From contig JAPZAS010000032.1 of the NCBI GenBank assembly GCA_027460525.1, forward strand, positions 1-64,000: a stretch of DNA of 64,000 nucleotides. The letters are read 5' to 3'. Below the pieces are notes generated by a model, which made no database searches, had not been told where the DNA came from, and saw only the letters and a list, made by a program, of their open reading frames with translations. This document shows positions 4,297-62,825 of the stretch, one piece after another (within the stretch, counting starts at the first letter, position 1; every line of letters starts with the position of its first letter). This stretch comes from Candidatus Methanoperedens sp. (GTDB lineage: Archaea > Halobacteriota > Methanosarcinia > Methanosarcinales > Methanoperedenaceae). Made by a program: the position numbers and the translations under genes.

Positions 4297-4434
4297 CTAC
4301 TCTTTATCATCGCATTTCAGATAATGATATACTGCTTTTGAAATGGCTTCTTTTACGGAGGACTCTCCCGATTTTGCCTTAAGTGCGATTACATCTTCCT
4401 GTGGAAGTACCGATTGGACATGAACTATCTTCAT
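4297..4434 (-). CDS. DUF5371-like small protein, 45 aa
   Basis: The start is set at the ATG at 4434 (MKIVHVQSVLPQED...), because a strong Shine-Dalgarno sequence GGAGG (minus strand, 4445-4449) sits ten bases upstream. A longer frame to 4494 would run through the operator and promoter. The sequence resembles the short DUF5371 family of Methanosarcinales (KSGESSVKEAISKAVYHYLKC), which looks like a ribbon-helix-helix-sized protein: an N-terminal strand followed by helices. DNA binding is a guess based on size and shape only. The 23-bp operator shared with archaellum genes lies 37 bases upstream. Confidence 0.6.
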   Translation of the reverse strand: MKIVHVQSVLPQEDVIALKAKSGESSVKEAISKAVYHYLKCDDKE

Positions 4435-4471: not shown

Positions 4472-4494
4472 ATGATACTCATAATGCTAATCAT
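4472..4494 (-). promoter_or_regulatory. 23-bp ATGAT operator, site 4 (DUF5371 promoter)
   Basis: On the minus strand the 23-mer runs ATGATTAGCAT then TATGAGTATCAT. It agrees with the copies upstream of the archaellum genes at all 15 invariant positions. On the plus strand its first 11 bases (ATGATACTCAT) are identical to the first 11 of the archaellin site. A TATA-like box (GTTTATAC) lies immediately upstream on the minus strand, placing the element over the likely transcription start. Confidence 0.65.
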
Positions 4495-4574
4495 GTATAA
4501 ACCTTTCTATTAATTCATCAATTCAATCATAATATTAATAGGTAAAGCCGGTTATATATGGCACTCGAAAACAT

Positions 4575-5385: not shown

Positions 5386-5544
5386 ATGTCCGATGTATAC
5401 GATAACGTATGGGAGAGCCGCAAACGCAAGCCTCCTGCAAGGGAGGAAAAAAAGCTTCCTGAAGTGAAACCGCCTTCTACAGACCGCGAGAGGTTAAAAG
5501 ACACCATCGAAAGGCGAAAAAAGAATGTATATGGAATGAAATAA
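5386..5544 (+). CDS. Small basic hypothetical protein, 52 aa
   Basis: ATG at 5386 is preceded by an AAAGGTGA ribosome-binding sequence about 6-12 bases upstream. The product is highly charged, rich in Lys, Arg, Glu and Pro (ESRKRKPPAREEKKLPE, DTIERRKKNVYGMK), with no cysteine and no hydrophobic segment. It looks like an unstructured or nucleic-acid-associated small protein. Codon-like composition and the ribosome-binding site support a real gene. Family not recognised. Confidence 0.55.
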   Translation: MSDVYDNVWESRKRKPPAREEKKLPEVKPPSTDRERLKDTIERRKKNVYGMK

Positions 5545-5603
5545 AATTCTTAATTCCTCCATATTATGCTTTTTTGTATTTCAAATAAGGAGGCATTTAA
5601 ACA

Positions 5604-6308
5604 GTGGAAGTTTCGATAATCCTGCCGGCTTATAATGAAGCGCCACGTATAGAAAGCACAGTTGAAAGGACTGCCGCAGCCCTTTGTGACATCACACCAT
5701 CGTTTGAAATCATAATCGCCGAGGACGGAAGCCATGATGGCACGGACAGAATTTGCGCCGCACTTGCGAAAAAATATCCCTTTGTGGTACATCTGCATTC
5801 TGATGAAAGGCTGGGAAGGGGAGGCGCTATGAACCGAGCGTTGCGGGCATCAAAGGGAGACATTCTTTGCTATATTGATGTTGATCTTGCCACGGATATG
5901 AAACATTTAAAAGAGCTTGTTCAGGCAATCCGCGATGGTTATGATTTTGCTACAGGCTCGCGGCTGCTTGCGGAAAGTGATGTTAAAAGACCATTAAAGA
6001 GGGAACTTGCAAGCAGAGGTTTTAATTTTCTGACACGTCTCTTGCTGGGTTCAAAACTATACGACCACCAGTGCGGGTTCAAATCCTTCAAGCGTGATTC
6101 CATTTTTGCGATTATGGATGCCGTCAAAGATACCCACTGGTTCTGGGATACTGAATTACTCGTCAGGGCACAGCGCGCAGGATACAGGATAAAAGAGTTC
6201 CCGGTCGAATGGAAGCACGGGGGCGCAACTAAAGTTAATCTAATAAAAGATGTCTTCGGAATGGGGTCTTCGATATTCAGGTTATGGTATGAACTCTTAT
6301 GGGATTGA
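5604..6308 (+). CDS. Family 2 glycosyltransferase, dolichyl-phosphate sugar synthase type
   Basis: GT-A fold glycosyltransferase of 234 residues. It likely transfers a hexose from a nucleotide sugar to dolichyl phosphate at the cytoplasmic membrane, as in ALG5/AglJ-like enzymes of the N-glycosylation pathway. Visible are the N-terminal SIILPAYNEA motif, the nucleotide-binding EDGSHDGTD, LGRGGAMNRAL, the metal-binding DVD in CYIDVDLAT, the CGFKSFKRD loop and the DTELLVRAQRAGY acceptor region. The start is a GTG at 5604, preceded by AAGGAGG. The nearby DUF2298 membrane protein may also be part of surface glycosylation. Confidence 0.88.
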   Translation: MEVSIILPAYNEAPRIESTVERTAAALCDITPSFEIIIAEDGSHDGTDRICAALAKKYPFVVHLHSDERLGRGGAMNRALRASKGDILCYIDVDLATDMKHLKELVQAIRDGYDFATGSRLLAESDVKRPLKRELASRGFNFLTRLLLGSKLYDHQCGFKSFKRDSIFAIMDAVKDTHWFWDTELLVRAQRAGYRIKEFPVEWKHGGATKVNLIKDVFGMGSSIFRLWYELLWD

Positions 6309-13094: not shown

Positions 13095-13120
13095 ATGATA
13101 ATGCTTATCATACTAATCAT
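13095..13120 (-). promoter_or_regulatory. 23-bp ATGAT operator, site 5 (roadblock-KaiC operon promoter)
   Basis: On the minus strand, bases 13120-13098 give a copy of the 23-mer (ATGATTAGTAT then GATAAGCATTAT). On the plus strand, 13095-13111 is a perfect inverted repeat, ATGATAA-TGC-TTATCAT. A TATA-like stretch ATATATAAG follows directly (13122-13130), so here the element is upstream of, or overlapping, the factor-binding region. The roadblock gene starts 53 bases downstream of the element. Confidence 0.65.
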
Positions 13121-13173: not shown

Positions 13174-13539
13174 ATGACTACAACCGAAATGCTTGAAAAA
13201 ATCCTAAATGACATTAATAACATAGGGGGTGTCGAAGCATCGGCAATAGCAAGCAGAGACGGTTTGCTTATTTGTTCAACCATACCTAAAAAACAGCATG
13301 CTGAGACATTTGTAGCAATGTCGGCTACAATGATAGGAGCTGCAGAAACCGCAACAACAGAGCTTGGCAAAGGGATTCCAGACAGGATAATCGTGGAATC
13401 CAAACACGGAAAAATATTAGGAACAGGAGCAGGCGGAAAAGCGTTGCTGTTGGTTATGACCCGACCGGATGCGGGTCTTGGATTAGTTCTGATAGAGATG
13501 GCAAAGGCATCAGAGAAGATAAAGCAGGTTCTGGGCTGA
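13174..13539 (+). CDS. Roadblock/LC7 domain protein
   Basis: A 121-residue single-domain protein of the roadblock/LC7 (MglB-like) superfamily, small alpha/beta dimers that regulate GTPases or act as signalling adaptors. Visible signatures are VEASAIASRDGLLICST, the helix with SATMIGAAETATTELG, and IVESKHGKILGTGAGGKALLLVM. It opens a same-strand cluster with a KaiC-like ATPase, two membrane proteins, a histidine kinase and a receiver protein. The 23-bp operator shared with archaellum genes lies in its promoter. No MglA-like GTPase is adjacent. Confidence 0.9.
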   Translation: MTTTEMLEKILNDINNIGGVEASAIASRDGLLICSTIPKKQHAETFVAMSATMIGAAETATTELGKGIPDRIIVESKHGKILGTGAGGKALLLVMTRPDAGLGLVLIEMAKASEKIKQVLG

Positions 13540-54868: not shown

Positions 54869-55645
54869 ATGAGTTTCGGACTTTTATTGAATGCAATCGT
54901 TTGTTTTGCTATTGTACTTGCTGCTTTTGCTTTTGCTGTGAGCTTGCACCAGAATAAAAAGAACCAGAAAGAAGAAAGCATGCCCACAGTCAATGCCCTC
55001 ATCGTGTTCTGGTCGTTTGTTGGAGCGTTTTTTTTATTTGCAGGTTTAAGGACTCTGGCAGCATATGGGAATTTCACGGAAATCGCGGAAAATCTGTATT
55101 ATGTGGGCGCGCTCCCGTTTGCATTTGTTACAGTCCCGCTCGTTTATTTTATAATATACATCATTCTCGGTGATACCCGCATCAGCCTTGCAGTATCAAC
55201 CGTTTTCCTCATTTTCGGCGGGATTTACTTAGTTGCACTTTTCGGTTTCGGGATTATCGGTCCATCCACAACTGAATGGGGTTCCACTTTTGCGATAAAC
55301 AGCGCCATCGCGATAAATGTATATCTCTCAGGATTATTTATCGTGCCGACAAGCATGATTATGGGGCTATTGCTGCTGATACTTCTTCGGAGGATTCCAA
55401 AAAGGCTCCAGAATAAGATCGCTTTCTCCCTCGTTGCCATCTCCTTGATCTTTGATTTCATGCTCCTCGATAATATAGCGCCTTCGGGAGCTACCCAGAT
55501 GGCTGCGAGGATTTTCACATTCATAGGCGTGGTTCTGGGTTTCTTTGTATATTTCACGCCTTTATCCTTCGACCAGGATATCATGGAGGACAGGCTCGGC
55601 TTATCCCAGACCGAGCTTCTGGATTTTGAGCATGAAGACGAGTGA
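54869..55645 (+). CDS. Seven-helix membrane protein upstream of the archaellum operon
   Basis: Protein of 258 residues with about seven predicted membrane helices and an acidic cytoplasmic tail (LSQTELLDFEHEDE). The layout (short first loop, alternating helices up to ~230) resembles 7TM sensor modules of archaeal signal proteins, but no known domain is certain. It is followed six bases later by a winged-helix-like protein and then the archaellin gene. A sensory or regulatory role for the archaellum is a contextual guess. Confidence 0.65.
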   Translation: MSFGLLLNAIVCFAIVLAAFAFAVSLHQNKKNQKEESMPTVNALIVFWSFVGAFFLFAGLRTLAAYGNFTEIAENLYYVGALPFAFVTVPLVYFIIYIILGDTRISLAVSTVFLIFGGIYLVALFGFGIIGPSTTEWGSTFAINSAIAINVYLSGLFIVPTSMIMGLLLLILLRRIPKRLQNKIAFSLVAISLIFDFMLLDNIAPSGATQMAARIFTFIGVVLGFFVYFTPLSFDQDIMEDRLGLSQTELLDFEHEDE

Positions 55646-55651
55646 GGGACT

Positions 55652-56014
55652 ATGGAAATTGATATCGAATCCGAGAAGGAAGTGGCAAACTTCTATCAAT
55701 CCATGGGGATAACCACAGGTCCAGGGGATATCCAGTACAGGTTGATACTTCTTGTTCTTGCGAAAAACGGAGAAGACAGGGTGACGCGGTTCTCTGAGAT
55801 CAGGGAATACACAGACAGGATTGCTGACCGGGGCAGCATAGGCAGCAAGTTAAAAGCGACTTTCCAGCTTGAAGGGCTGGCTATAAAGGTGGGGCACGGC
55901 GGTTATATAATAACGCATAAAGGACTTCTGGCAGCGGATTTTATAAAGTCCACTTCCGATTATTACAGGAAGGTTAAAACTGTAGAGAAGATAATCGAAC
56001 GCATCCCGGCTTAA
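55652..56014 (+). CDS. Winged-helix-like protein next to the archaellin gene, 120 aa
   Basis: Small soluble protein that starts six bases after the seven-helix membrane protein. Residues ~25-100 fit a winged helix: a helix-rich start (DIQYRLILLVLAKNGE), a turn, VTRFSEIREYTDRI as putative recognition helix region, then LEGLAIKVGHGGYIITHKGLLAADFI with the typical wing and 'THKG' end. Such proteins are usual transcription regulators. Target unknown; the archaellin promoter directly downstream is the first candidate. Confidence 0.65.
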   Translation: MEIDIESEKEVANFYQSMGITTGPGDIQYRLILLVLAKNGEDRVTRFSEIREYTDRIADRGSIGSKLKATFQLEGLAIKVGHGGYIITHKGLLAADFIKSTSDYYRKVKTVEKIIERIPA

Positions 56015-56078: not shown

Positions 56079-56119
56079 GCAACCATTAACTATATATATA
56101 ATAAAGCTCATAAGAATGT
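56079..56119 (+). promoter_or_regulatory. Archaellin promoter (GCAACC box and TATA)
   Basis: GCAACCATTAA at 56079-56089 is followed by ACTATATATATAATAAAG, a strong TATA element. Copies of the GCAACC-TTAA box occur at the same relative place upstream of the next two genes (56786 and 57976), so it is part of a shared promoter design. The 23-bp operator starts at 56120, where the transcript should begin. Confidence 0.6.
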
Positions 56120-56142
56120 ATGATACTCATGATAAGTATCAT
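56120..56142 (+). promoter_or_regulatory. 23-bp ATGAT operator, site 1 (archaellin)
   Basis: Perfect inverted repeat ATGATACT, seven-base spacer CATGATA, AGTATCAT. It contains all 15 positions conserved among the five copies. It lies about 20 bases after the TATA box and ends 21 bases before the archaellin ATG, between the promoter and the GGAGG ribosome site. A repressor over the start site would fit. Confidence 0.7.
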
Positions 56143-56163
56143 AAAAAGAAGGAGGAAACATAT

Positions 56164-56757
56164 ATGAAGGCATTAATAAAAAGTGAGGAGGCACAGGCTG
56201 GCGTCGGCACGCTCATCATATTCATCGCAATGGTGCTCGTGGCGGCTGTCGCGGCTGCTGTGCTTATCCAGACATCAGGTACTATGCAGTCCAAGAGTAC
56301 ATCAACCACAAAGGAGGCTGCATCGGCAATTGGAGAAAATATTAATGTGGAATCTGTCGATGGATATGCTGCCAATGCTGGAACATTAACTAGTATTAAT
56401 GTTACAATAAGACCTGCAGCAGGTAGTTCACAGATTGACTTGAGCAAGGTTTTGATGAAAATGGGCACAAACCCCTATAGCTATAGCAATACTACAACAT
56501 CAGGAACCACGTTCAGAGTGTATTCATTAAGGGATCCAAGCAACCTTACCATTACTCCAATCAATTCTTATACTGGTGCAGCTAGTCCGGCACTTGGAAC
56601 TGGCGCGTTAGTGAGACTCGATGCTGATGTCTCAGGTTTATCCCTCACATCGAAGGCGAGTATAACACTTACGCTGACCCCAGAAAAAGGCTCATCATTC
56701 AACCTGCAATTGACACTTCCAGCAATTGCCGCAGGTAATAATTCGATATACCCATAA
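56164..56757 (+). CDS. flaB/arlB: Archaellin (archaeal flagellin)
   Basis: Major filament protein of 197 residues. The start at ATG 56164 is decided by the GGAGG ribosome site eight bases upstream and by the class III signal peptide MKALIKSEEAQ, cut before AGVGTLIIFIAMVLVAAVAA, the hydrophobic helix that packs the filament core. The outer domain is rich in Ser, Thr and Asn with several N-x-S/T sequons (NVTIRP, NTTTSG), likely glycosylated. Only one archaellin is visible; many archaea have several. Confidence 0.92.
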   Translation: MKALIKSEEAQAGVGTLIIFIAMVLVAAVAAAVLIQTSGTMQSKSTSTTKEAASAIGENINVESVDGYAANAGTLTSINVTIRPAAGSSQIDLSKVLMKMGTNPYSYSNTTTSGTTFRVYSLRDPSNLTITPINSYTGAASPALGTGALVRLDADVSGLSLTSKASITLTLTPEKGSSFNLQLTLPAIAAGNNSIYP

Positions 56758-56785
56758 AGTATATCGGATTTTTTTCTTTTTTATC

Positions 56786-56834
56786 GCAACCTTTAAGTTA
56801 AAGTACATATCATGATAACAATCATAAGCATAAT
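56786..56834 (+). promoter_or_regulatory. Promoter and 23-bp operator, site 2 (ArlF/G-like gene 1)
   Basis: GCAACCTTTAAG (from 56786) acts as BRE/TATA. The operator copy at 56812-56834 starts ATGATAACAATCAT and ends AAGCATAAT. It ends 14 bases before the ATG at 56849, the same distance as at site 3, and an AGAGGA-like ribosome site follows it. Confidence 0.65.
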
Positions 56835-56848
56835 AGAGGACTTGAACT

Positions 56849-57898
56849 ATGGGCGCGGAAACTTCGGTTGTGGTTGCATTGTTCTTTCTGGGATTTCTGA
56901 TCGTATCTGCTTTCACATACTCATGGGTTGATCCCGATCAAAATCTTGTAACAAACGCTCAGAATGTGCATGATACCACGAAAAATGCCTGGTTGCAGAC
57001 AGATATCAAGATAACGAACGTCTCATTCTTGAATTCCTCTGGAAATGTCTACCTGAATATTTCACTTAAAAATACAGGCAAGACCACGCTCAATACAGGT
57101 CTGCTGGAATTTTTTGTTAATGGGAACTATATCGATTCCTCTTACTGCCTAAATGCAGCAATAAAAACATGGGTTCCAAAAAATATCACGAACATCTCAA
57201 TTTATTCCGTAGTGGGAAATATAACGTTAGATAACGCAACATCAACAGCAATCGGATCTGCTTCTTCGATTACATGGTCGCACACCGTCTGGTCCTTGTC
57301 GCACTCATTGTTGGTAGTCGGGGTCGATATTGACAAGACGAATGGTTCAGTCACGAGCATTACTTATGCCGGGGTTCCTTTGACAAGAGCAGCGTACTCT
57401 GTGGTGAACACTGGTGATACGGTGAGAGCAGAATTGTGGTATCTGGCAAATCCTAAGGCTGGAACGAACAATATAGTGGTGAATCTTAGCACGACAGAAG
57501 GAGCAGCAGCAGGAGCCGTATCCTTTTCAGGCGTGGACGGGACCACCCCGATTCCCACAACAGCGACAGGTTTTGGCTCAAATGGCAATGCATCCACCTC
57601 AATAACAACGGCCAATGCCTATGCCTGGATTATCGATACGGTAGTACGGGACAATACAGCTGCAAAGAATGCAACAAGCCCTCAGGTGGAAAGATGGAAT
57701 ATAGCATCAGGCATCGGCGGAGGCGGAAGCACAAAAAACACCACCACTCCAGGATCTCAAACAATGGGTTGGAGCGGCACCTCAGGGTGGGCGCAGGTTG
57801 CGGCAGAGATAAAGCCATTTATGTGTAGTACTCCCACGAAAGGTCGCATAAAAGTTGTAACAGAGAACGGTATATGGGATTATGCGATTGCATCTTAG
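56849..57898 (+). CDS. ArlF/ArlG-like archaellum protein with large inserted domain, copy 1
   Basis: Protein of 349 residues, about twice the usual ArlF/ArlG length. Residues 1-25 are a membrane anchor (MGAETSVVVALFFLGFL). Residues ~45-135 and the last ~20 (GRIKVVTENGIWDYAI) form a typical ArlF/G beta-sandwich, with TDIKITNVSF and LKNTGKTTLNTGLLEFFVNG. Between its late strands sits an insert of ~190 residues (LLVVGVDID, ELWYLANPKAG, AVSFSGVDGTTPI, WAQVAAEIKP), a domain familiar from secreted archaeal and bacterial proteins. ArlF/G make up the stator that ties the motor to the S-layer, so the insert probably faces outward. Own promoter with operator. Confidence 0.8.
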   Translation: MGAETSVVVALFFLGFLIVSAFTYSWVDPDQNLVTNAQNVHDTTKNAWLQTDIKITNVSFLNSSGNVYLNISLKNTGKTTLNTGLLEFFVNGNYIDSSYCLNAAIKTWVPKNITNISIYSVVGNITLDNATSTAIGSASSITWSHTVWSLSHSLLVVGVDIDKTNGSVTSITYAGVPLTRAAYSVVNTGDTVRAELWYLANPKAGTNNIVVNLSTTEGAAAGAVSFSGVDGTTPIPTTATGFGSNGNASTSITTANAYAWIIDTVVRDNTAAKNATSPQVERWNIASGIGGGGSTKNTTTPGSQTMGWSGTSGWAQVAAEIKPFMCSTPTKGRIKVVTENGIWDYAIAS

Positions 57899-57975
57899 GT
57901 GATGAATGGATATTTGATTTCATACAGGATGTGATAAGGCAGGCTTTGCACCTGAACCCTTAATTTTTGCATATC

Positions 57976-58032
57976 GCAACCTTTAAGTCTACGTATACCT
58001 TATAATATGATGATAAGCATAATGAGCATAAT
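57976..58032 (+). promoter_or_regulatory. Promoter and 23-bp operator, site 3 (ArlF/G-like gene 2)
   Basis: TATCGCAACCTTTAAGT repeats the promoter box found 1.2 kb upstream. The operator at 58010-58032 begins ATGATAAGCAT and ends AATGAGCATAAT, 14 bases before the ATG at 58047. An additional ATGAT half overlaps its left edge. Confidence 0.68.
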
Positions 58033-58046
58033 AAAGGTCATATATC

Positions 58047-59099
58047 ATGGGCGCGGAAACTTCGGCTGTAATGGCATTATTATTTCTTGCGTTTCTGGTC
58101 GTTTCAACTGTCGGTTACTCGGCTGTTGATTACTCTAAAAACCTTGTAAAAAATGCGCAGTATGACCAGGATACTATGAAAAAAACAAAAATGCAGACGG
58201 ATATCACTATTACGAACGTCACATTCACGACTAACTCAGGAAATCTCTACCTGAATATTACACTTCAAAACACAGGCAAGACCACGCTCAATACAAGCCT
58301 GCTTGATATATTTATAGATGGAGTATATTCTCCCTCTTACATCCTGTCGACGGGAAATACATTGGCTCCAGAAAATAGCACCAACATCTCATTTTATCCC
58401 AGCGGGGCAATAACATTAGATAACGCAGGAGCAAACATATCAAACAGTTCCACCAAAGTATTAAACCTCACAAGCTTTGCCATAGGAAGCGGAACCAACA
58501 GGCTCCTGGTTGTGGGTCTTAACTACAACAATACCCCTGGCACCACATCAACCGTGAAATACAACAATACAGACCTGACACTTGCAATGAGAGCTAATAA
58601 CAGTAATAAAAACTACACCGAACTGTGGTATCTGGTAAACCCGCCAAGCGGCTCGTACAACATCTCCCATAATCAAACCAATGCCACTCAAATGGTGATG
58701 GGAGCCTGGTCATACACAGGCGTAGACCAGGTCACACCAATAGGAAATATCACAAACGCAACAGGTACTTCAACTAACTCCAACGTCAGTATAACAACCA
58801 CTGTGGCAAACAGTGTTCTTGTAGATGTGGAGACAGACGGAAGTACGTTATTAACCGTTGGTGCTGGGCAGACTCAAAGATACAAAGCCAATACAACCAA
58901 AATCAATGGGGGAGGAAGCGAGATGAGCACCTCCGCTGCAGGAACTTACAATATGAATTGGGCATTGGGAAGTAGTGCAGCATGGGTAAATATAGGCGCT
59001 GAAATAAGGCCGTATTTGAGTAATACGGTCAATTCCACGATCAGTCGCATAAAAGTTGTAACAGAGAACGGGATATCTGATTATGCGCTTGAATCTTAG
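58047..59099 (+). CDS. ArlF/ArlG-like archaellum protein with large inserted domain, copy 2
   Basis: Paralogue of the preceding gene, 350 residues, with the same plan: anchor MGAETSAVMALLFLAFLVVS, beta-sandwich TDITITNVTFTTNSGNLYLNITLQN, long insert (RLLVVGLNYNN, ELWYLVNPPSG, AWSYTGVDQVTPI, WVNIGAEIRP) and the returning end SRIKVVTENGISDYALES. Core parts are closely similar to copy 1 while the insert has drifted more. Both the gene and its promoter were duplicated. Many N-x-S/T sites suggest glycosylation. Followed eight bases later by the ArlF-like/FN3 gene. Confidence 0.8.
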   Translation: MGAETSAVMALLFLAFLVVSTVGYSAVDYSKNLVKNAQYDQDTMKKTKMQTDITITNVTFTTNSGNLYLNITLQNTGKTTLNTSLLDIFIDGVYSPSYILSTGNTLAPENSTNISFYPSGAITLDNAGANISNSSTKVLNLTSFAIGSGTNRLLVVGLNYNNTPGTTSTVKYNNTDLTLAMRANNSNKNYTELWYLVNPPSGSYNISHNQTNATQMVMGAWSYTGVDQVTPIGNITNATGTSTNSNVSITTTVANSVLVDVETDGSTLLTVGAGQTQRYKANTTKINGGGSEMSTSAAGTYNMNWALGSSAAWVNIGAEIRPYLSNTVNSTISRIKVVTENGISDYALES

Positions 59100-60507: not shown

Positions 60508-61206
60508 ATGAGCGCAGGTATTCGTTCCTTTGAATTAAAACGCGATGAAGTGTGCAGCAGACTGGGTGGAGGCTTTCCGTCAGGCTCCATAATAGTGATA
60601 GAAGGTGGCAACGGGAGCGGAAAAAGCACTGTCTGCCAGCGGCTTGCATACGGGCTGATGGAGAATGGCTCCTCGGTGACCTATGTTTCAACCCAGTTGA
60701 CAACCAAGGGTTTTATCAACCAGATGTATTCGCTTAACTACAAAGTAGCCAGTTTTTTGTTAAAAAAGAAACTGCTCTACATCCCTGTCCTTTCCCTGAT
60801 AGGTCCTACGCCGGCAAGAACGGATTTCATTGAACGGTTAAGAAGCGGAAAAGAACTTTTCGATAACGATGTAATAATAATAGACACCATATCATCCCTC
60901 ATCAAACACAGCGCAAATGTAAAAAAAAGTCTTGAACTTATATCGTTTTTCAAAAAATTGACCGGAATAAAGAAGACTATTATCCTCTCGATTGACCCTT
61001 CTGAGCTGGAACCTGAGATACTTTCGGAATTTGCTGGTGGAAGCGACGTAAACCTTTCTTTGAAGGTGAGCACGCTCGGCAGCAGCATCAAGAGAACGAT
61101 CATAGTAAATAAATTTACCGGGGCTTCTGCTTCAGTTGAAAGTATGATCGGTTTCAGGATTGAATCAAACGTGGGTCTGGTTGTTGAAATCGCATCCGTG
61201 TCGTGA
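60508..61206 (+). CDS. flaH/arlH: Archaellum motor regulator ArlH (FlaH)
   Basis: RecA/KaiC-like ATP-binding protein of 232 residues that forms a ring on ArlI in the motor. Walker A is GGNGSGKST (~32-40), Walker B VIIIDTISSL. The start is ATG 60508 (MSAGIRSFELKRDE); the TTG at 60499 would overlap the ArlG stop. The sensing glutamate normally after the second strand is replaced by YVSTQLTT, as in other ArlH. It overlaps arlI by one base (TGATG). Confidence 0.92.
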   Translation: MSAGIRSFELKRDEVCSRLGGGFPSGSIIVIEGGNGSGKSTVCQRLAYGLMENGSSVTYVSTQLTTKGFINQMYSLNYKVASFLLKKKLLYIPVLSLIGPTPARTDFIERLRSGKELFDNDVIIIDTISSLIKHSANVKKSLELISFFKKLTGIKKTIILSIDPSELEPEILSEFAGGSDVNLSLKVSTLGSSIKRTIIVNKFTGASASVESMIGFRIESNVGLVVEIASVS

Positions 61207-62825
61207 TGGAAATGAACGAAACACTTGATGATGCACTAAAGCGCAACCCTCATCTTTCAGAATATCTTAACGAACTCCAAAGAAATAATAAAGCAATCCC
61301 TTCATTTGTCATCCAGATTCCCAGAGAGATGGCGCTTGAAAAAACGCCCAACATAATATACCCTGTGGGAGACCCGATATTCGTACATATCCATGGCGAA
61401 TCCGGAAAGGAGATTACATATACTGCCATCGAACCGCGCCTGAAGCCGGATAAAATCGCTAAATACAACCTTATTGTTGAAAAAGTCCTTGAGAAAGGGC
61501 TTAAAAATAAAACTCCTGTTTCAAAAGAGAATCTGAAAAAGATTCTACTAACGATTCTCGACGAGACAATAAAAGTAGGACCGATCGGAAAAAAATTATC
61601 CGGGGTTTCTGCGATTCCGGTCACGAAAGAAGAATACGACGATTTCAGCTATCTTATAGTAAGGGACATTATTGATTCAGGACCAGTTGAAGCCACAATA
61701 CGTGACCCGTATCTTGAGGATATACACTGCGTTGGCTTAAATCCGGTATCGCTTGTGCATAAGACATTCGGGAATATCACATCCAATATACGGTTTGACT
61801 CAAAGCAATCGCTTGATAACTGGCTGCGAACCATGAGCGAACGTATAGGGAGACCTATAGGCGACGCAAATCCAATAGCAGGCGGGACTCTCCCCAGCGG
61901 TTCACGTATCGCCATCGCTTACAGCGACGATATAAGCAGGCGTGGAAGTTCATTCACTGTTCGAAAATTCACAAAAACCCCTCTCTCCATAACCCAGCTC
62001 ATCAAATGGGGGACATTTAGTTCCGAAGAAGCAGCATATCTCTGGCTCTGTCTGGAAAATGGCATGAGCGTATTTATGTGCGGGGAAACAGCCAGCGGCA
62101 AAACGGCTGCTTTGAATGCCACGCTCATATTCATAGACCCCAAAGCCAAGATATACAGCGCAGAAGATGCCACCGAAGTCACCCCTCCGCATGATGTATG
62201 GCAGCAGCTTGCCACAAAAGAGGATGGAGCAGAGGAATCACAGGTTCACATGTTTACCCTCCTTAAGGCAGCACTTCGCTCGCGTCCCAATTATATTATA
62301 GTAGGTGAGATACGGGGCGTGGAGGGTGCAGTGGCATTTCAGGCAATGCAGACAGGTCATCCTGTTATGGCAACGTTCCATGCATCATCGGTAAAAAGGA
62401 TGATACAGAGGTTTATAGGCAACCCGATAAACGTCCCGGTCACGTTCATAGATAACCTCAACGTATGCGTGGTACTTCATGCCATGTACAGGAACGGCAT
62501 GCTGATAAGACGTATAACGGCAGTGGAAGAACTTGAAGGGTACTACGAAGAAGCCGGCGGCGTGATAACGCGAGCCGTTTTCGAATGGAATCCTTCAACC
62601 GACAAACAGGATTTCAGGGGATTGAATAACAGCTATATCCTCGAAGAAAAGATTGCAGCAAGGCAGGGTTACACGGATAAACGAAAAATCTATGAGGAAC
62701 TTGCAACCAGGGCAAGGATTCTTGATGCGATGGTTGAAAACGGGGTATTCGATTTTATGAAGACGTTTGAAATCGTGAAAGCATACCGGGAAAAAGGTCT
62801 TGAAGGGATTCCTTTTGCAGTTTGA
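61206..62825 (+). CDS. flaI/arlI: Archaellum motor ATPase ArlI (FlaI), copy 1
   Basis: Secretion-type hexameric ATPase of 539 residues that powers assembly and rotation. N-domain ~1-230 (NIIYPVGDPIFVHIHG; IRDPYLEDIHCVGLNPV), catalytic core with Walker A GETASGKTAALN (~296-307), the Asp/Glu-box SAEDATEVTPP, Walker B RPNYIIVGEIRG, and the His box TFHASS. The start is ATG 61206 (MEMNETLDDALKRN). A second, closely related ATPase follows six bases later. Confidence 0.94.
   Translation: MEMNETLDDALKRNPHLSEYLNELQRNNKAIPSFVIQIPREMALEKTPNIIYPVGDPIFVHIHGESGKEITYTAIEPRLKPDKIAKYNLIVEKVLEKGLKNKTPVSKENLKKILLTILDETIKVGPIGKKLSGVSAIPVTKEEYDDFSYLIVRDIIDSGPVEATIRDPYLEDIHCVGLNPVSLVHKTFGNITSNIRFDSKQSLDNWLRTMSERIGRPIGDANPIAGGTLPSGSRIAIAYSDDISRRGSSFTVRKFTKTPLSITQLIKWGTFSSEEAAYLWLCLENGMSVFMCGETASGKTAALNATLIFIDPKAKIYSAEDATEVTPPHDVWQQLATKEDGAEESQVHMFTLLKAALRSRPNYIIVGEIRGVEGAVAFQAMQTGHPVMATFHASSVKRMIQRFIGNPINVPVTFIDNLNVCVVLHAMYRNGMLIRRITAVEELEGYYEEAGGVITRAVFEWNPSTDKQDFRGLNNSYILEEKIAARQGYTDKRKIYEELATRARILDAMVENGVFDFMKTFEIVKAYREKGLEGIPFAV

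Follow-up and report, generated by a model that had tools for sequence, protein, structure and literature searches.

The window analyzed here covers the initial 64 kb of contig C32 in a 2.44-Mb Methanoperedens genome (37 contigs, 99.5% complete). It contains five copies of a 23-bp element, three of them in an archaellum cluster, and a 45-aa gene of the DUF5371 family that the first-pass annotation had overlooked and at whose promoter the fourth copy lies. The features concerned are as follows:

4300..4434, minus strand: DUF5371 gene, 45 aa, candidate regulator (PF17341, E=1.8e-18; orthologues; AF2 model)
4472..4494, minus strand: site 4, directly after the DUF5371 TATA box and 37 bp before the start codon; conserved in relatives
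4495..4507, minus strand: BRE/TATA of the DUF5371 promoter, GAAAGG-TTTATAC; in relatives CGAAAG-CTTTATAC
13098..13120, minus strand: site 5, on the opposite strand to the following gene and 54 bp 5′ of its start
13174..13539, plus strand: roadblock/LC7 gene (PF03259, E=1.1e-13)
56079..56091, plus strand: BRE/TATA-like GCAACC-ATTAACT of the archaellin promoter, from sequence
56120..56142, plus strand: site 1, 21 bp before the archaellin start; palindromic at 20 of 23 positions
56164..56757, plus strand: archaellin gene (MKALIKSEEAQAGVG...; PF01917, E=1.8e-26; homologues)
56786..56797, plus strand: BRE/TATA-like GCAACC-TTTAAG of site 2, from sequence
56812..56834, plus strand: site 2, 14 bp before ArlF-like gene 1
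56849..57898, plus strand: ArlF-like gene 1 (NF052590, 67 bits, under the 110-bit cut-off)
57976..57988, plus strand: BRE/TATA-like GCAACC-TTTAAGT of site 3, from sequence
58010..58032, plus strand: site 3, 14 bp before ArlF-like gene 2
58047..59099, plus strand: ArlF-like gene 2 (ORF; N-terminus common to gene 1)

We call the gene at 56849 "ArlF-like" only, because its score is below the NCBIfam cut-off for ArlF. The roadblock/LC7 gene heads a run of ORFs encoding roadblock, KaiC-like, membrane, and histidine kinase proteins. The archaellin BRE/TATA is kept as ACAACC-ATTAACT in two other genomes (G030, G017).

All five sites are present at the coordinates and on the strands given by the first-pass annotation, and each matches its 15-position pattern with 0 mismatches; the start-codon distances of sites 1 to 3 (21, 14, and 14 bp) and their GCAACC/TTTAAG boxes were likewise correct. 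Two points need correcting: the TATA box (TTTATAC) abuts site 4, which therefore covers the start region and is not wholly leader, and site 5 is on the opposite strand with an ambiguous TATA. Because the 15-position pattern was read off these same five sites, we give independent support more weight than counts of the pattern itself. At up to 3 mismatches the window holds 25 pattern matches, compared to 4.9 ± 2.5 (maximum 12) in 100 dinucleotide shuffles. Pattern searches of the 2.44-Mb genome, from which our genome-wide counts derive, returned a sixth exact copy (C3:68016), copies with 1 or 2 mismatches at gene fronts (C35:55029, C32:67548, C15:185984), and, at up to 2 mismatches overall, 71 strand-matches versus 15 for the reversed pattern (about one-fifth). 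A position weight matrix (PWM) derived solely from the genome's five non-archaellum sites finds sites 1 to 3, with 0 of 1,000 shuffles as good for each. The strict form ATNATNMKYATNATNAGYATNAT, searched for in 31 Methanoperedens genomes, returned 31 strand-matches versus 1 for its reversal. At all 20 loci examined, this strict pattern is intergenic and outside long ORFs, mostly shortly 5′ of a gene; the motif is restricted to promoters. The motif is AT-rich, and weak matches are therefore unreliable. Chance similarity among AT-rich promoter DNA would fit a consensus built largely of AT dinucleotides and relaxed matches that include simple ATN repeats, but it is contradicted by the shuffles, the reversed pattern, the control promoters described below, and conservation across genomes, and we regard it as hardly credible. 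The 23-bp feature is confirmed as real.

The element consists of AT-N-AT boxes with a 9-bp period, usually three, linked mostly by the joiner N-AG-Y (AGY) or its complement R-CT-N (CTC). Site 1 and the C3:68016 site are near-perfect 23-bp palindromes (20 of 23 positions), while the other sites are better read as tandem 9-bp repeats. At sites 1 to 3 and in many relatives, the element is downstream of the BRE/TATA and over the expected transcription start. Its orientation relative to the gene varies, as at site 5 and at the G008 archaellin (L103), where it is on the strand opposite to the gene; because both orientations occur, the element is most likely a DNA operator and neither codes for a peptide nor acts as RNA. 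In favor of a translated leader peptide (MISIMSII...), nearly all of the variable positions recur at every third base, as codon wobble would (ATN ATN AGY), position 18 is invariably Y, which would suit Ser codons, and the site 1 frame ends on the archaellin start (ATGA). Yet the DUF5371 promoters of close relatives lose the ATG and keep the array, in G030 the element has shifted out of frame with its gene, and the TATA box abutting the element at DUF5371 places it mostly upstream of the expected start. We rejected the leader peptide on orientation, ATG loss, frame loss, and TATA position at DUF5371, and an RNA element on its varying orientation; together they are very improbable. Palindromic or tandem boxes, use of either orientation, a fixed place by the TATA, intergenic position, and conservation in relatives support the reading of the element as a putative protein-bound DNA operator overlapping the transcription start.

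The gene behind site 4 has a 45-aa product that scores 66.9 bits against the PF17341 profile (cut-off, 25) and is matched in 52 of 60 related genomes, often by several paralogues; the source genome has three DUF5371 genes. Among named organisms, its closest relatives belong to Candidatus Methanoperedens (ANME-2d) assemblies. The gene order FAA hydrolase - DUF5371 - purE is conserved, and the N-terminal residues H5, Q7, V9, and L10 are invariant or nearly so. We found no mention of DUF5371 (PF17341) in the literature searched. Among 86 extracted DUF5371 upstream regions, many of those belonging to short-form genes have a conserved BRE-TATA (CGAAAGCTTTATACAT) that runs straight into an AT-N-AT array, the array often ending at −31 or −37 from the start codon (range, 31 to 37 bp). 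We scored the 66 regions whose genes are ≥70% identical to the DUF5371 gene of the window with a PWM from which site 4 had been excluded: 29 of the 66 reach p≤0.01 against shuffling, and at a 13-bit threshold 48% pass, versus 7.6% with the reversed PWM and 3.8% of 182 control promoters (seven, of which four are the window sites, leaving 3 of about 178 non-target promoters), all with the proviso that orthologous promoters are not independent observations. The simpler pattern ATNAT-N4-ATNAT is present in 42/60 promoters of short DUF5371 genes and in 6/7 of the MTKI type, versus 20/233 controls. De novo EM on the DUF5371 promoters converged on ATN repeats, a result that cannot separate an operator from general promoter conservation among orthologues. 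Overall, the array is on about one-half to two-thirds of short DUF5371 genes in Methanoperedens, its sister genus, and family f2, versus a few percent of control promoters; about one-third of short DUF5371 genes are without it.

The occurrences outside Methanoperedens include the sister genus g2 (L123, L129) and family f2 (L135, L160, L165, L168, L171). Archaellin matches are absent from all f2 genomes but one, and because the array persists there, the element belongs first to DUF5371, with archaellum genes as other addresses. One Methanoperedens genome, G009, has the motif but no short DUF5371 gene; the FAA hydrolase gene that normally adjoins it is missing too, and the DUF5371 locus is therefore probably missing from the assembly. 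In a DUF5371 subfamily whose proteins begin with MTKI or MITK (L145, L164, L175, L179), the BRE/TATA is immediately preceded by the palindrome ATGAT-N4-ATCAT, which is related to the array but shorter and placed differently.

The element is also conserved at archaellin promoters. It precedes the leading archaellin, of AQAG type, in G028, G030, G017, G011, and G013 and the leading archaellin, of ADVG type, in G005, G008, G009, G012, G015, and G024. Most internal tandem archaellins are without it, as are several Methanoperedens archaellin promoters, including that of G001, whose DUF5371 promoter has the array. Further strict sites are 5′ of secreted or membrane proteins. In the source genome, the element also fronts a 78-aa HTH gene that is followed by a secreted protein, another secreted protein next to the archaellum cluster, a membrane protein of small size, and a secreted protein rich in repeats. 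In three Methanoperedens genomes (G005, G007, G009), a secreted protein containing five CxxCH haem motifs starts about 110 to 120 bp downstream of a strict copy of the motif:

L084:1643-2980, L069:102-1379, and L333:80-1393: five-CxxCH secreted proteins

These sites are a possible link to extracellular electron transfer. The element is not specific to the archaellum, since it also fronts the DUF5371 gene, regulators, and secreted proteins. From genome to genome its steadiest partner is DUF5371, which the first-pass annotation did not see. We take the element to be the operator, conserved in relatives, of a regulon of archaellum and cell-surface genes that is probably autoregulated by the small DUF5371 family.

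Two described systems of archaellum regulation bear comparison with this arrangement. The closest in logic is CsmR of Haloferax volcanii, which recognizes a pair of 5-bp boxes with 9-bp spacing (TATCA-N4-TGATA) by the TATA at archaellum promoters and is a repressor, since motif-bearing genes rise in the deletion mutant (PLoS Genet 2026, PMC13286277). Both cases combine a 9-bp box spacing next to the TATA with archaellum genes; however, CsmR is an Lrp/AsnC-like winged-helix protein mainly of Halobacteria, and its box order and sequence differ from those of the Methanoperedens element. No CsmR motif was found near sites 1 to 3 with up to 1 mismatch, and the lone exact CsmR-type match in the window (position 589) falls outside the archaellum promoters. 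EarA of Methanococcus and Pyrococcus, an activator, shares euryarchaeal regulation at the first archaellin promoter, but it uses several 6-bp TACATA sites upstream of the BRE (PMC5512572, PMC10665913), whereas sites 1 to 4 are downstream of the BRE/TATA. Neither EarA- nor CsmR-type sites were found at the promoters of sites 1 to 3, and both were rejected there.

DUF5371 is our candidate reader of the element because its own promoter keeps the element without archaella and because rival candidates fail on distribution. The AF2 model of the 45-aa protein (mean pLDDT, 87.9) has an extended N-terminus and helices at 12-22 and 27-44, with no strand assigned in the monomer; this shape would fit a ribbon-helix-helix (RHH) monomer whose strand forms only in the dimer. 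A fold search listed, without significance, the RHH proteins FitA (TM 0.61) and NikR (TM 0.55), both at E>1, hhalign to CopG fails, and for a protein so short there is no significant sequence or fold match to RHH. Small RHH repressors such as CopG, Arc, FitA, and MetJ have about 45 aa, bind as adjacent dimers on short boxes 8 to 11 bp apart (about 9 bp for CopG), and autoregulate through an operator over their promoter. DUF5371 resembles them in its length of about 45 aa and in the ATNAT boxes 9 bp apart at its own promoters.

Alternatively, another protein could read the same operator, DUF5371 being just a conserved target. We consider this unlikely, though it is the strongest competitor to a DUF5371 reader. 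One candidate is a 120-aa protein (about 55652-56014, plus strand) whose gene is paired with that of a 258-aa membrane protein (54869-55645, plus strand) beside the archaellin. The gene is archaellum-linked and conserved in several families, and the pair stands beside archaellin in the host's family and elsewhere in the order. The 120-aa protein, possibly winged-helix, is matched in 16 of 60 genomes (52 to 93% identity) but falls in neither a Pfam nor an NCBIfam family; a fold predicted from the sequence by itself was too poor to use (pLDDT 40), and a scan of viral contigs with the protein returned no match. Control of Haloferax archaella by CsmR, a winged-helix protein encoded beside archaellins, lends such a candidate some weight (PMC13286277). 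Its distribution is mismatched, however: the gene is absent from the motif-bearing archaellin clusters of G005, G008, G009, G012, G015, and G024 and from f2 genomes with the motif at DUF5371 promoters (G034, G038, G042, G054), and it is found in genomes whose archaellins lack the motif. We rejected it as the reader on these grounds; it is possibly another archaellum regulator that does not track the motif. The 78-aa HTH gene at C3:68016 carries its own exact site but is present in only 5 of 60 genomes, for which reason it was rejected as well. The third candidate comes from the archaellum/chemotaxis cluster of G008, which encodes two proteins with RHH-like N-termini (RKNVSISDAHLKLLEPL...; L103:4282-5334 and 5540-6208) for which no Pfam family was found. 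The second of these genes has a motif copy 63 bp upstream; nevertheless, this protein was rejected because it lacks a close homologue in G000, where there is just a 36%-identical homologue without the site.

We therefore return to DUF5371 as the reader, and we lean, with somewhat better than even confidence, toward a model in which this small, probably RHH protein, bound across the start site, represses its own gene together with a regulon for the archaellum and cell surface. DUF5371 dimers would lie side by side on successive boxes, one per box, in the manner of small RHH repressors. Through site 4 the protein would repress its own gene, and through the other copies it would repress archaellin, arlF-like, roadblock/KaiC, and several cell-surface genes, with the bound dimers over the start site blocking initiation. 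Archaella and surface proteins would thereby be turned on and off by a switch that limits itself. The first-pass annotation had likewise proposed a repressor blocking the start site; the putative operator does overlie the expected start, while the choice of repression over activation is drawn from position only. DUF5371 might instead activate, or both activate and repress, from the same operator; the sites of the MTKI subfamily and site 5, which may lie upstream of the BRE, would be in keeping with that role. So would the behavior of haloarchaeal CdrS, a small RHH regulator that mostly binds 41 to 110 nt upstream of start sites (PMC8406309). At sites 1 to 4 and most DUF5371 promoters, by contrast, the element is downstream of the TATA over the expected start, the classic position of an archaeal repressor, and we judge activation rather improbable. 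CdrS, from Haloferax and Halobacterium, is itself a parallel for a very small RHH regulator with a symmetric motif and many targets and is tied to ftsZ2 and cell division (PMC7439475, PMC8406309). It differs in mostly binding upstream of start sites and in having no described archaellum link, and, unlike for CdrS, no ftsZ lies beside any of the genome's three DUF5371 genes.

Were this model borne out, Euryarchaeota would have, besides EarA and CsmR, a third way of regulating the archaellum. For an uncharacterized multi-copy archaeal family, the analysis supplies a candidate site on DNA, a prediction of its fold class, and a set of targets, which bears on when ANME-2d archaea make archaella, surface, or electron-transfer proteins. 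More tentatively, and we think this somewhat doubtful, the multi-copy short DUF5371 proteins may be operator-binding switches that jointly set archaella, secreted and surface proteins, and in some species a multihaem cytochrome of a type that serves extracellular electron transfer, which would be the first function for this family.

Two further observations concern surface filaments. In G000, a type IV pilin-like gene (MKFRKNEEAVSPVIGVILM...) and a DUF5371 gene of the long form share 4 bp (L319:992-1692, contig C31), another DUF5371 link to such structures. An ArlI-only scan of the genome contigs returned no match; the archaellum cluster on contig C32 contains two tandem ArlI-like ATPase genes that are 54% identical (61203-62825 and 62835 to past the window end), and a tandem ArlI-like pair is likewise present in G001, G026, G030, G017, G013, and G011.
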